Assembly: GCF_000399685.1 (NCBI RefSeq)
Contig: NZ_KB976987.1
Coordinates: 1,751,184-1,815,183, forward strand
DNA length: 64,000 nt
DNA from: Acinetobacter pittii ANC 4050
GTDB lineage: Bacteria > Pseudomonadota > Gammaproteobacteria > Pseudomonadales > Moraxellaceae
Reading direction: 5' to 3'
Shown: in pieces, positions 57,060-63,516 of the stretch
Layout: each line of letters starts with the position of its first letter
Numbering within the stretch: position 1 is the stretch's first letter
Program-made: the position numbers and the translations under genes
Notes under the pieces: model-generated
Seen by the model: only the letters and a program-made list of their open reading frames with translations
Told to the model about the DNA's origin: nothing
Database searches by the model: none

Positions 57060-57314
57060 GACCTATCCTTATCAACAAAACTACAAACTAAAGAAGGCAT
57101 ATAGTAAAGCACGTCACAGCCAATTGAATATAGATTTTTAGCCAAATCACAGTTTTGTAAGATATTCCTTTTAAAATCGTTGGTTCGGTGGGGTTTTTCC
57201 GCTACAATTTAGCGTTTTTAAAAAATAAGCCCCGTATCACATGCTCAGGTTTTGTATAAAACAAACAGGCATTGATACTTTTAGCCAAATTCGAAAATAT
57301 GGAGTGACTTGGTT

Positions 57315-59966
57315 GTGAGTACTCGTTTAATGACATCTGCTGAAATTCGTGAAGCATTTTTGCGCTACTTTGAAACGCAAGGGCATACACGTGTCGCGTC
57401 GAGTTCTCTTGTTCCTGCCAACGACCCAACTTTATTATTTACAAATGCTGGGATGAACCAGTTTAAAGACTGCTTTTTAGGTCTTGAGAAGCGTGACTAT
57501 GTACGTGCAACCACATCACAAAAATGTGTACGTGCTGGCGGCAAACACAATGACTTAGACAACGTTGGCTACACTGCACGTCACCATACATTCTTTGAAA
57601 TGTTAGGTAATTTCTCATTTGGTGATTATTTCAAACGTGATGCACTTAAATTCGCATGGGAATTTTTAACCAGCGAACAATGGCTTGCTTTACCAAAAGA
57701 TAAACTTTATGTCACGGTTTACCATACTGATGACGAAGCGTACGACATCTGGAACAAAGAAATCGGTTTAGCGCCAGAACGTATTATCCGTATTGGTGAT
57801 AATAAAGGCGAAAAATACGCATCTGATAACTTCTGGGCAATGGGTGATACTGGCCCATGTGGTCCATGTTCTGAAATTTTCTTTGACCATGGTGACCACA
57901 TTTGGGGTGGTTTACCAGGCTCACCTGAAGAAGACGGTGATCGTTTCATTGAAATCTGGAACAACGTTTTCATGCAGTTTAATCGTACTGCTGATGGCGT
58001 ACTTCACCCTCTCCCTGCTCCATCTGTTGATACAGGCATGGGCTTGGAGCGTATCTCTGCTGTATTGCAACATGTTAACTCGAACTACGATATTGACCTG
58101 TTCCAACACCTATTAAAAGCTGCTGCAAATATTATTGGTATTGAAGACCAAGGTCAGCCTTCTTTACGTGTTGTTGCCGACCATGCGCGTTCATGCTGTT
58201 TCCTTATTGCTGATGGTGTAAACCCAAGCAATGAAGGTCGTGGATATGTACTTCGCCGTATTATCCGCCGCGCTGTGCGTCACGGTAATAAACTTGGGGC
58301 AACTGGTACGTTCTTCTACAAAATGTTGCAACCTTTAATTGAAGTTATGGGTGATGCATATCCAGAACTTGCAGCTCGTAAAGATGTGATTGAAGCAACT
58401 TTAATTCGTGAAGAAGAACAGTTCGCTAAAACACTTGAGCAAGGCTTAAAGCTACTTGAAGGCGAGCTTGCTCAATTAAAAGATAAGACAATTCCTGGTG
58501 CGACTGTATTTAAACTTTACGACACTTACGGCTTCCCAACTGACTTAACTGCTGATATTGCACGTGAACGTGGCTTTATCATTGATGAAGCAGGCTTTGA
58601 AGTGGAAATGGCTGCACAGCGTCAACGCGCTCGTGATGCTGGTAAATTCGCAGTTGACTACAACAACATTGTAAAAGTTGAAGGCGAAACCCAGTTTGAC
58701 GGTTACATCAACACCACTGGTCAAGGTCAAATTGTAGCGATCTATAAAGATGGCGAACAAGTTGATGAAGTTTCTGAAGGTGATGAAGCACTTATCGTTT
58801 TAAACCAAACTCCTTTCTATGCTGAAAGTGGTGGTCAGATTGGCGACACAGGTATCTTCAAAAACGAAACTGGTATTTTTGAAGTTCAAGATACTAAAAA
58901 GTCAGGCGGTGCCTTCGTTCATCAAGGTATTGTGACCGTTGGTAGTCTTAAAGCCGAGCAAAATGTTGAAGCGATTGTTAAAGCAGACATTCGTGATGCA
59001 ACAGCTCGTAACCACTCTGCAACTCACCTATTACATGCTGCCCTTCGTCAAATCTTAGGTTCACATGTACAACAAAAAGGTTCTTTAGTTGCAAGTGATA
59101 TCTTACGTTTTGACTTTGCTAATGACCAACCTGTAACTTTTGAACAGTTACAACAAGTTGAGCGTTTAGTAAATGCAGAAATTATTGCAAATAGTGTTGT
59201 AACAACCGAACTTCTTGACATTGAAGCTGCAAAAGCTAAAGGTGCCATGATGTTGTTTGGTGAAAAATACGGTGATGAAGTACGTGTACTTTCTATGGGT
59301 TCAATTATTGATGAGAAAAACTTCTCAATTGAACTGTGTGGTGGTATTCACGTTAAACGTACAGGTGATATTGGTTTATTCAAAATCACTTCTGAAGGTG
59401 GTGTAGCTGCTGGTGTACGTCGTATTGAAGCCGTTACAGGTACTAGAGCGCTAGATGTAGTACAAAAAACTGATGCTGATATCCAGCACATTAATGGCTT
59501 ATTAAAAGCACAGAAAGACCAAACTGTTGAGCGTGTACAAGCCAATGTTGAATTGGTTTCTGCATTACAAAAGCAGATTGAACAACTCAATCAGAAATTG
59601 GCAAACTTCCAAGCGTCAGAATTGATTGACCAGGTACAAACCATTGCTGGTCGTCAAACGCTTATTACCACTGTCCAAGGTGTAGATGCAAAATCACTTC
59701 GCAACTTACATGACAGTGTTAAATCAAAATTAGAGAATGCAGTTATTGTGTTAGCTGGTGTAGAGGGTGACAAAGTTAGTCTACTTGCTTCAGTTGCATC
59801 ACAATACACTGCAAATCTAAAAGCAGGTGACATCATCAAACATCTAGCAACTGAGTTAGGTGGTAAAGGTGGTGGCAAACCTGACTTAGCACAAGGTGGC
59901 GCGCCACTTAACGAGAAGTTTGGACAAGTGATCGCAGCATTGCCTGCATGGCTTGAACAAAAATAA
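57315..59966 (+). CDS. alaS: Alanyl-tRNA synthetase
   Basis: AlaS charges tRNA-Ala and edits mischarged Ser/Gly. The N-terminal class II core shows [45 protein letters not shown] (in outline) and GMGLERI. The editing domain has [12 protein letters not shown] (about residue 565) and [13 protein letters not shown]. The C-Ala domain ends in [14 protein letters not shown]. The GTG at 57315 has GGAG eight bases upstream, giving 883 aa; an ATG at 57330 (878 aa, starting [10 protein letters not shown]) is the likely database start. An integrated element begins right after the terminator. Confidence 0.96.
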
Positions 59967-60012: not shown

Positions 60013-60032
60013 TGGCTTATATGGAACAACTA

Positions 60033-60063
60033 TGGCATTAATCGTTCAAAAGGATTAATGCCA
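60033..60063. repeat. Perfect 11-bp inverted repeat at the element boundary
   Basis: TGGCATTAATC (60033-60043) and GATTAATGCCA (60053-60063) are exact inverted repeats around GTTCAAAAG. There is no T tail, so it is not an obvious terminator. It lies between the alaS terminator and the integrase arm repeats, the place expected for the integration (attL) core; that role is inferred. Confidence 0.55.
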
Positions 60064-60064
60064 A

Positions 60065-60176
60065 CCAGACATCCTCAGACAAGTCTAGACAAAAATCATA
60101 ATAAAAACCTTTAATTTAAAGCTTTTCCCCTTTTCCAATATAGACAAAACCAGACAAGTTCAGACAAAATAAGACA
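60065..60176 (+). repeat. Two clusters of AGACA repeats phased every 10 bp
   Basis: AGAC occurs at 60067, 60077 and 60087, exactly 10 bp apart, and again at 60142, 60152, 60162 and 60172, exactly 10 bp apart. Most copies read YAGACAARN. Such direct repeats on one helical face upstream of an integrase gene fit integrase or excisionase arm-type binding sites. There is no spacer variety, so this is not a CRISPR array. Confidence 0.65.
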
Positions 60177-60180
60177 CCAC

Positions 60181-60245
60181 AATTATGTACACATGCGTGT
60201 ACATATTCGAAAGATTCCTTTCATCTCTTAAAAATTATGTACACA
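60181..60245. promoter_or_regulatory. Operator-like repeats over the integrase promoter
   Basis: AATTATGTACACA occurs at 60181-60193 and again at 60233-60245, the second covering the integrase ribosome-binding site. The first is part of the palindrome TGTACACATGCGTGTACA (60186-60203), two 7-bp arms around ATGC. A protein binding both sites could block integrase expression. Confidence 0.5.
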
Positions 60246-60254
60246 AGGTAGTTT

Positions 60255-61460
60255 ATGGCTTTAACAGAAGCATGGCTCAAAGCTAATAACAGCAAGTCTC
60301 GTGAGAAAGTTGAAGAGGTTGCAGATCGTGACTCAATGAGTGTGAGAATATCTCCTAAAGGGAAAATTGTTTTCCAGTTGAGATATCGATTTGCTGGAAA
60401 AGCGGAAAGATTAGATTTAGGCACCTATCCTCACCTTTCGCTTAAAGATGCGCGTATTAAAGCTGGAGAAATGCGTTCTCTATTAGATAAAGGCCAGAAC
60501 CCTAAAGTCGAGATACGTGTACAACAACAGAAGTATATTGATGCAAGCACACTTAAAGAAGTGTTTGATGATTGGTATAACAGTTATTGTATTAAAAAGA
60601 AAACGTCAGCAAAGGATATTAAAAGATCATTTGAACATCATGTTTTTGAAGAAATTGGTGATTTACCTATTGAAAGAATTACGCTGCAGCAATGGTTAGC
60701 AATACTTGAAGACTTAGCAGATGAAGTACCTTCTATTGCGGAAAGAATTTTAACTAACGCAAAACAACTGCTTAAATGGGCTAAGAAGCGTGAAATTGTG
60801 GAAGTGAATGTTCTATCCGATATATATGCTAAAGAAGATCTAGGTATTGAAAAGAATCGTGGTAAACGTGTCTTAACTGATGAAGAAATTACTATGGTTT
60901 GGAAAGCTATTGATGAGTCAAAAGCTTTACTTAAAAATAAGATCTTTCTGAAATTATGTTTAATGTTTGGTTGTCGTAATGGCGAATTAAGAAAAGCACT
61001 AAAAACTGACTTTGATTTAAAGCGTAAGGTTTGGATCGTGCCAGTTGAAAACAACAAAGTCGGGAAAAAAACAGGTAGAGAAATTGTTCGTCCAATTTTG
61101 CCAGAAATGGAAGAGTTAATTGTTGAAGCCATGTCATTGAATGATAGTGAGTACTTCTTAACAAATGATGATGATGTAACACCAATGGGCCACGGTTCCT
61201 CAAATTCACTTGCAGCGAATGTTATGGAGCGTTTGCGAAGACATTATAACTATCACATGCCCCACTGGTCTCTTCATGATTTACGCAGAACTGCCCGTAC
61301 AAACTTTAGTGCATTCACGAGTCGTGATGTTGCCGAACTCATGATTGGGCATGTTATGCCGGGCGAACAAGGTACATATGATTACTATGAATACTTACCA
61401 CAACAAATTGAAGCTTATAGAAAATGGTTGGATAAACTAGCAACTCTGACTACTATTTAA
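60255..61460 (+). CDS. Tyrosine-type site-specific integrase (P4-like)
   Basis: The 401-aa protein has an N-terminal DUF4102-like arm-binding domain (FQLRYRFAGKAERLDLGTYPHLSLKDARIKA, in outline, about 39-70) and a core-binding domain (about 95-185). The catalytic domain has Arg in GCRNGELR (about 241), HDLRRTART (His 341, Arg 344), His in LMIGH (about 366) and Tyr in GTYDYYEY (about 375). All active-site residues are present, so it should be functional. It inserts or excises the element that starts here. AAGG precedes the ATG. The array of phased repeats lies just upstream. Confidence 0.93.
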   Translation: MALTEAWLKANNSKSREKVEEVADRDSMSVRISPKGKIVFQLRYRFAGKAERLDLGTYPHLSLKDARIKAGEMRSLLDKGQNPKVEIRVQQQKYIDASTLKEVFDDWYNSYCIKKKTSAKDIKRSFEHHVFEEIGDLPIERITLQQWLAILEDLADEVPSIAERILTNAKQLLKWAKKREIVEVNVLSDIYAKEDLGIEKNRGKRVLTDEEITMVWKAIDESKALLKNKIFLKLCLMFGCRNGELRKALKTDFDLKRKVWIVPVENNKVGKKTGREIVRPILPEMEELIVEAMSLNDSEYFLTNDDDVTPMGHGSSNSLAANVMERLRRHYNYHMPHWSLHDLRRTARTNFSAFTSRDVAELMIGHVMPGEQGTYDYYEYLPQQIEAYRKWLDKLATLTTI

Positions 61461-62880: not shown

Positions 62881-63516
62881 ATGTGTGCAAACTATGAACC
62901 GATATCAAAAGATCGAGTGCACCTACTTGATCTATTCGAACCAACATTCGACTATAAAGATGATGTTTATCCTGGCTACGACTGCCCTCTTATATTTTCT
63001 AAAGAGGGCCTGATAGAATGGCGACAAGTAAAGTTCGGCATGATTCCACCTTGGCAACATGATCTTAAATTTTCAAAATACACATACAACGCTAGAACTG
63101 AGACTGTAGATAAAAAACCAAGCTTTAGACACGCGTGGGCTAAAAGTCAGTTTGCTTTAATCCCTGTAGAAAAGATATATGAGCCAAGGTATGTGAATGG
63201 TAAAGCTGAACGTTGGGGTATTTATCGGGAAGACAGAATGCCCTTCACTGTCGCTGCAATTTATGAATCAACAATGATTGAAGGTCAGCAAGTCAGATCG
63301 ATGTCTATGCTTACAATCAATGCTGATAACCACCCTTTTATGTCGCAGTTTCATAAACCAGAAGATGAGAAAAGATCTATCATCGTTATTCCTGGCGAGT
63401 ATAGAGAAGATTGGCTAAACTGTAAAAAAGAAGATGCTTTTCGGTTTTTCTTTGAAATGCCCCTAGATGAATTTACTGCTGACTACTTCCCAAAACCCCC
63501 AAAAAGTGCAAATTAG
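62881..63516 (+). CDS. SRAP-domain protein (YedK/HMCES family)
   Basis: The 211-aa protein begins MCANYE, with the conserved Cys2 that forms a covalent DNA-protein crosslink at abasic sites. It also has the YNARTE loop (Asn 70, Arg 72), the Glu in IYEPRY (about 101) and the His in FHKPEDEKR (about 158; usually HDRMP), the set used by SRAP proteins to shield abasic sites in single-stranded DNA. The HDRMP motif is divergent here. It starts four bases after the GNAT-like gene and is followed by a umuD homologue, a usual SOS association. Confidence 0.88.
   Translation: MCANYEPISKDRVHLLDLFEPTFDYKDDVYPGYDCPLIFSKEGLIEWRQVKFGMIPPWQHDLKFSKYTYNARTETVDKKPSFRHAWAKSQFALIPVEKIYEPRYVNGKAERWGIYREDRMPFTVAAIYESTMIEGQQVRSMSMLTINADNHPFMSQFHKPEDEKRSIIVIPGEYREDWLNCKKEDAFRFFFEMPLDEFTADYFPKPPKSAN

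Follow-up and report, generated by a model that had tools for sequence, protein, structure and literature searches.

Excisionases (RDFs) share a mode of action in which monomers bind to direct repeats spaced one turn of DNA apart, head to tail and cooperatively, and bend the DNA, as described in PMC7498355. For the KplE1 element, five TorI sites in attL have been probed by mutation (PMC2951348). In satellite phage P4, the excisionase Vis bends att DNA, and both the P4 and the KplE1 excisionases repress int from sites within att (PMC7498355). Xis of Gifsy-1 was found to bind cooperatively to three direct imperfect repeats in attP (PMC2603039). Against this background, we describe two arrays of the pentamer AGACA lying between alaS and the integrase gene of a prophage in the window, that is, the whole 64-kb stretch of DNA that was analysed. 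The most likely role of these real and conserved arrays is that of excisionase boxes in an integration module of the ordinary P4 type.

An attachment site in the 5' end of lysC

The features of the locus are as follows, in window coordinates.

57309..59966, + strand: alaS, host alanyl-tRNA synthetase, the left chromosomal flank (open reading frame, whose listed start codon may differ from the true one; same alaS-aspartokinase order at the empty site L003)
60032..60051, + strand: attachment core ATGGCATTAATCGTTCAAAA, 20 bp, common to attL, attR, attB and the attP of phage ABMM1
60033..60063, no strand: inverted repeat TGGCATTAAT...ATTAATGCCA at the phage-side core, candidate core-type integrase sites (from the sequence; kept in the ABMM1 attP)
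60067..60091, + strand: array I, candidate excisionase (RDF) box I, three AGACA at exact 10-bp steps (sequence, simulations, alignment)
60142..60176, + strand: array II, candidate excisionase (RDF) box II, four AGACA at exact 10-bp steps (sequence, simulations, alignment)
60186..60203, no strand: dyad TGTACACATGCGTGTACA, candidate integrase arm-type sites of the P' arm (sequence; the only other prophage copy is in the attR arm)
60238..60243, + strand: third TGTACA, a single half-site just before the int start codon (sequence)
60255..61460, + strand: int, P4-type tyrosine integrase, 401 aa (open reading frame, Pfam, PHROG)

The integrase contains the domains Arm-DNA-bind_3, Phage_int_M and Phage_integrase (Pfam 1.7e-18, 2.1e-10 and 1.6e-10, respectively) and has a PHROG integrase match at 2.5e-62; an Arm-DNA-bind_3 domain together with a central and a catalytic domain identifies it as a tyrosine integrase of the P4 type. 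The aspartokinase (lysC) coding sequence begins with the 20 bp of the core ATGGCATTAATCGTTCAAAA. At an empty site (L003, in a record labelled Acinetobacter phage MD-2021a), alaS is followed by the aspartokinase start ATGGCATTAATCGTTCAAAAATATGG. In the window, the first 20 bases of ATGGCATTAATCGTTCAAAAATATGG come after alaS (60032-60051) and are followed by GGATTAATGCCA and the arrays, and the remaining aspartokinase gene is found from C1:1893213 on, with the same 20 bases at its start and phage DNA before it. As lysC is split and its 20-bp core repeated, an element of about 82.0 kb is inserted in the 5' end of this gene, its attL lies in the window, and the upstream DNA native to lysC is now 82 kb away. 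The attR, an empty attB and an intact attP, the last in phage ABMM1, were all identified. The attP is joined in the ABMM1 record; its core and inverted repeat are the same as in the window, and its array is related. A 20-kb query taken from the prophage aligned with ABMM1 over 40% of the query, at 96%. The arrays are therefore placed inside att and beside the core, the first AGACA beginning 15 bp past it, a detail missing from the first-pass annotation. The target is not claimed as new, since RGP10 at lysC in strain D1279779 (PMC3602452) and Ph3-N between the aspartate kinase and alanine-tRNA ligase genes in NCIMB8209 (PMC7392541) were noted earlier at this locus.

Some further observations concern the element and its surroundings. 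A gene for an SRAP (SOS response associated peptidase) protein is located just inside the prophage, at window positions 62881-63516. On the other side, the attR arm (L008:1347-1375; C1 about 1893059-1893087) includes a promoter-like TTGTTA-17-TATACT, 155 bp before the core. A loose form of this pattern matches all nine P arms that were compared (ABMM1, the window's own attR and seven others, 250 bp each); a match of this type in a single region is no better than in shuffles (1 found, 1.2 expected). Judged by its position, the sequence would read into lysC at attR and towards int in circular phage DNA. Two loci, L100 (G047) and L097 (G064), have a related P arm before lysC, while their best match to the window's integrase reaches only about 1e-19 to 1e-20. 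In G047, which is a single contig, alaS and lysC are about 1.35 Mb apart, and an inverted repeat near alaS resembles the core dyad, although a simple hairpin would explain it just as well. A decayed element and a rearrangement may lie behind this arrangement.

Phasing of the arrays and its conservation

The seven AGACA start on the + strand at 60067, 60077, 60087, 60142, 60152, 60162 and 60172; the first-pass annotation had reported the repeats in two 10-bp clusters between 60065 and 60176, and this description was confirmed. They are thus short direct repeats about one DNA turn apart, in two runs, which is how RDF site arrays are defined in PMC7498355. The word itself is not enriched in the 64-kb window (114 copies vs 121 expected); it is the arrangement that is unusual. 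When 5-mers with at least three different letters were considered at fixed spacings of 6-30 bp, the AGACA array was the sole run of at least four in 64 kb. Across 100 second-order Markov simulations of the window, neither a run of four nor a same-word pair of runs of at least three within 120 bp was obtained, which bears out the earlier claim that such exact phasing is unlikely to arise by chance. Runs of at least three numbered 12 in the window against a mean of 2.42 in the same simulations; because some of these three-runs fall inside genes, the evidence is limited to the four-run and the paired array. The arrays are confined to the attL side: no further case of at least two [AG]GACA at 10-bp steps was found in the prophage (1811000-1890999, 1891000-1891712 and 1891713-1896181) or in the first 60 kb of the window. 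The annotation had also placed all the sites on one face of the DNA. This holds within each cluster but not across both, because 60087 and 60142 are 55 bp apart.

Conservation was assessed in an alignment of 13 distinct core-to-int stretches, namely the window and 12 relatives with the same core and an integrase identity of 80-83% (L084 is identical to L086 and was counted once). Both clusters are in phase in the 12 relatives. From -190 to -79, indels are limited to L011, in which each cluster is shorter by exactly 10 bp, and the 55-bp step between the clusters is ungapped in 13 of 13. Over these 13 sequences, the mean pairwise difference is 0.142 in the AGACA slots vs 0.305 in the 5-bp spacers (Mann-Whitney over columns, p = 0.0014, with columns taken as independent), 0.229 between the clusters and 0.075 in the -71 to -51 stretch with the dyad. 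Within the word, G and C are the least variable letters. The units of the relatives are degenerate; of those in ABMM1, for example, four are exact AGACA and the others read AGCCA, GGACA and AGTCT. On this sequence comparison, the phase is under constraint.

The strict 10-bp iteration was initially regarded as unusual, a view that did not survive: one-turn direct repeats are usual for RDF sites as described in PMC7498355, and a lag of 10 bp recurs in the integrase family. The latter was examined by counting self-matches at lags 6-30 in the core-to-arm stretch of one representative per lineage (n = 19) against first-order shuffles; the stretches were picked via the position of the arm dyad, and the lag figures are descriptive. 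Lag 10 ranked first in 11 of the 19 lineages, second or third in three (L113, L092, L018) and lower in five (cdtI L089, L117, L118, L120, L114). Combined z scores were 13.2 for lag 10 (11.4 without the window) and 8.2 for lag 20, with every other lag at 2.14 or less. An earlier pass over 30 regions had found lag 10 to be the strongest in 18, nine of which, taken one by one, reached a family-wise p of at most 0.05; in the remaining 12, Gifsy-1 (L090) among them, lag 10 was not in first place. Gifsy-1 stood in this 30-region pass, and its relative L113 represents it in the 19-lineage test. The repeated word differs from lineage to lineage. It is TTCAA in relatives at a prfC-like gene, which we take to be prfC from the peptide at the start of the target gene, and GGACA in L024 of the same group; elsewhere, it is AGAAC (L064), CAAAG (L036) or TGTCT/TGTCC (HK544). 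In three members with a prfC-like core (L028, L031, L032), a second TGTACA-like pair precedes the core, as if two elements stood in tandem. A short word repeated every 10 bp between core and int could serve as a signature of the RDF boxes of P4-type modules, though not in every lineage.

The protein that reads AGACA

The AGACA units are very probably the binding sites of the prophage's own AlpA/TorI-like excisionase (RDF). A small excisionase-like protein is indeed encoded by the element beside attR. Its gene is the last before attR (C1:1892753-1893004), and the 83-aa product matches the PHROG DNA-binding family phrog_4745 at 1.3e-23 and the PHROG excisionase family phrog_1553 at 1.8e-19. In searches bearing on a winged-helix fold, no Pfam match was found for it at E <= 0.1, and a 61% identical relative has an HTH_17 match below the curated cut-off. 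Searched against solved structures, a profile of ten RDF-like proteins without TorI reached no significant match (best E 0.028). When TorI was included, the profile retrieved TorI at 2.7e-7, a match that is partly circular because TorI was in that alignment.

The sites of the integrase itself would be found elsewhere in the att arms. TGTAC-N7..9-GTACA dyads occur twice in the prophage, one per att arm and none elsewhere. Across distinct upstream regions, TGTAC-N8-GTACA is present in 43 of 48 with an integrase identity of at least 38% (window included) and in 0 of 7 below 35%, where chance would give about 5e-5 per 110 bp; the count was restricted to regions with at least 180 bp of upstream DNA and a match beginning no later than residue 3, which excluded P4. 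The five misses at or above 38% are L078, L061, L025, L090 and L113, the last two, Gifsy-1 and its relative, having a TGGACA variant instead. On the opposite side of the core, a TGTACA pair stands 80 and 68 bp before the core in nine of nine P arms, one copy being degenerate in L097. With a presence on both arms and a constancy that goes with the arm-binding domain, the TGTACA sequences are probably the integrase arm-type sites.

The first-pass annotation read AGACA as arm-type sites for the integrase or an accessory factor. That the repeats are attachment-site elements of this integrase module is upheld, and an accessory factor in the form of the excisionase fits; the integrase is the less likely reader. 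For the integrase to bind AGACA through Arm-DNA-bind_3, TGTACA would have to be another regulator's operator, and we consider this unlikely. The array is positioned between the core and int, the integrase does have an arm-binding domain, and tandem arm sites exist, as in the annotated arm repeats of P4 at 12-bp steps. The integrase arm sites of phage lambda, too, are close to one another, so tandem spacing by itself is compatible with the integrase. However, the annotated P4 repeats occupy both arms, whereas [AG]GACA on the + strand is absent from all nine P arms here, seven of which have an isolated single TGTCC. Further, the word changes where the arm-binding domain is conserved. The N-domains of the window's integrase and those of L016, L018 and L064 are 72-75% identical, as are those of L064 and L016 or L018, yet the array words are AGACA, ATGCC-like, TTTCA-like and AGAAC, while the dyad stays. 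In KplE1, moreover, it is the RDF that binds the phased pentamers, and TAAA is the motif common to the integrase P' sites (PMC2951348). It is because of this one-sidedness and word turnover that integrase arm-type sites were rejected as the first choice.

It is more improbable still that the array is the operator of some other oligomerising phage regulator, for example one of lysis-lysogeny, that controls int. Array II may overlap an int promoter, and two RDFs, those of 186 and P4, regulate transcription in addition to their role at att (PMC7498355). Nevertheless, such a regulator would be left without another array in the prophage, and the promoter-like match in question, the only one over array II (60141-60170), is no better than chance in shuffles (1 found, 1.1 expected), so that this promoter was rejected as a candidate. 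A neutral tandem duplication of a 10-bp unit without function is barely credible: slippage could give exact 10-bp steps and L011 has 10-bp deletions, but the spacers are mutually unlike and diverge faster than the slots, and other lineages repeat different words at the same phase. Separately, a site for IHF between the arrays was sought, and only unconvincing matches with two mismatches were obtained (-155 on the + strand, -151 on the - strand).

Taking AGACA as excisionase sites, a mechanism can be proposed by analogy with KplE1 TorI, P4 Vis, Gifsy-1 Xis and 186 Apl, from which the identity of the binding protein, the bending, the directionality and the repression of int are all inferred. The small protein of the AlpA/TorI/Vis kind encoded beside attR would bind AGACA with one monomer per unit. 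Monomers would sit head to tail, one helical turn apart, and form two short filaments. These filaments may put a bend into the stretch of P' arm that separates the core (60032-60051) from the TGTACA sites (60186-60203, with the half-site at 60238), and the bent arm would favour the attL-attR excisive complex. Since the arrays are within about 190 bp upstream of int, the excisionase bound to them may also repress int.

A more tentative proposal, which we would not put at even chances, is that the excisionase and its phased array constitute an exchangeable specificity module, in which the integrase, the TGTACA arm sites and the layout are fixed and the word changes with the recognition helix. 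In the lysC group and in the prfC-type element L024, TL[NS]R is paired with [AG]GACA; TLWR goes with TTCAA or TTTCA (L020, L030, L018), and TLIN with CAAAG (L036). This correlation was noted by eye in a few lineages, and the excisionases of the relatives were picked by their recognition-helix pattern, so that some may have been missed. There is no simple one-residue code, because L016 combines TLKR with an ATGCC-like word and L061 has TLNR, with AGAAC in its relative L064. If the proposal is true, related prophages could keep private excision signals. More immediately, the analysis locates a probable excision control site for the prophage group at the Acinetobacter alaS-lysC locus, and tells apart two easily confused kinds of site, phased RDF units and integrase arm sites.

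Comparison with known systems

The TorI/IntS system of KplE1 (CPS-53) resembles the window: the integrase is of the P4 type, and the RDF is encoded at the other end of the element. Its attL likewise has RDF pentamers in two blocks, five in all, with three at exact 10-bp steps. In the MG1655 sequence, the pentamers GTTCG/GTCCG/GATCG are at -154, -134, -91, -81 and -71 from intS, positions that agree with the coordinates in PMC2951348 once the numberings are aligned on the intS start. Unlike the window, KplE1 has another word, a tRNA-Arg target and 2+3 instead of 3+4 sites, the first two of which are 20 bp apart. The integrases are only distantly related (21%, measured with Sf6 IntS of the same module).

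P4 matches the window in having 3+4 units at exactly 10 bp between the core and int. TCC is found at -143, -133 and -123 and at -80, -70, -60 and -50 from int, with one off-phase copy at -115, and we infer these units to be the Vis sites. P4 differs in its shorter word and in its arm repeats, of the GGGGGCAT type at 12-bp steps. These annotated attP arm repeats are a distinct 12-bp sequence that is present on both arms and apart from the TCC units. The integration target of P4 is a tRNA. As the word is only three bases long and the lag-10 z is 1.4 (3.4 for lag 20), P4 is a weaker precedent than KplE1.

The integrase of Gifsy-1 is 41% identical to that of the window over 99% of the query. In contrast to the window, lag 10 is not picked out in Gifsy-1, and the arm motif is TGGACA-like rather than TGTACA. 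Finally, Apl of phage 186 has five direct repeats at att with a spacing of 10-11 bp, although it is a sequence outlier among RDFs and acts also at pR-pL (PMC7498355). The arrangement seen at the alaS-lysC locus is itself already known from other phages.
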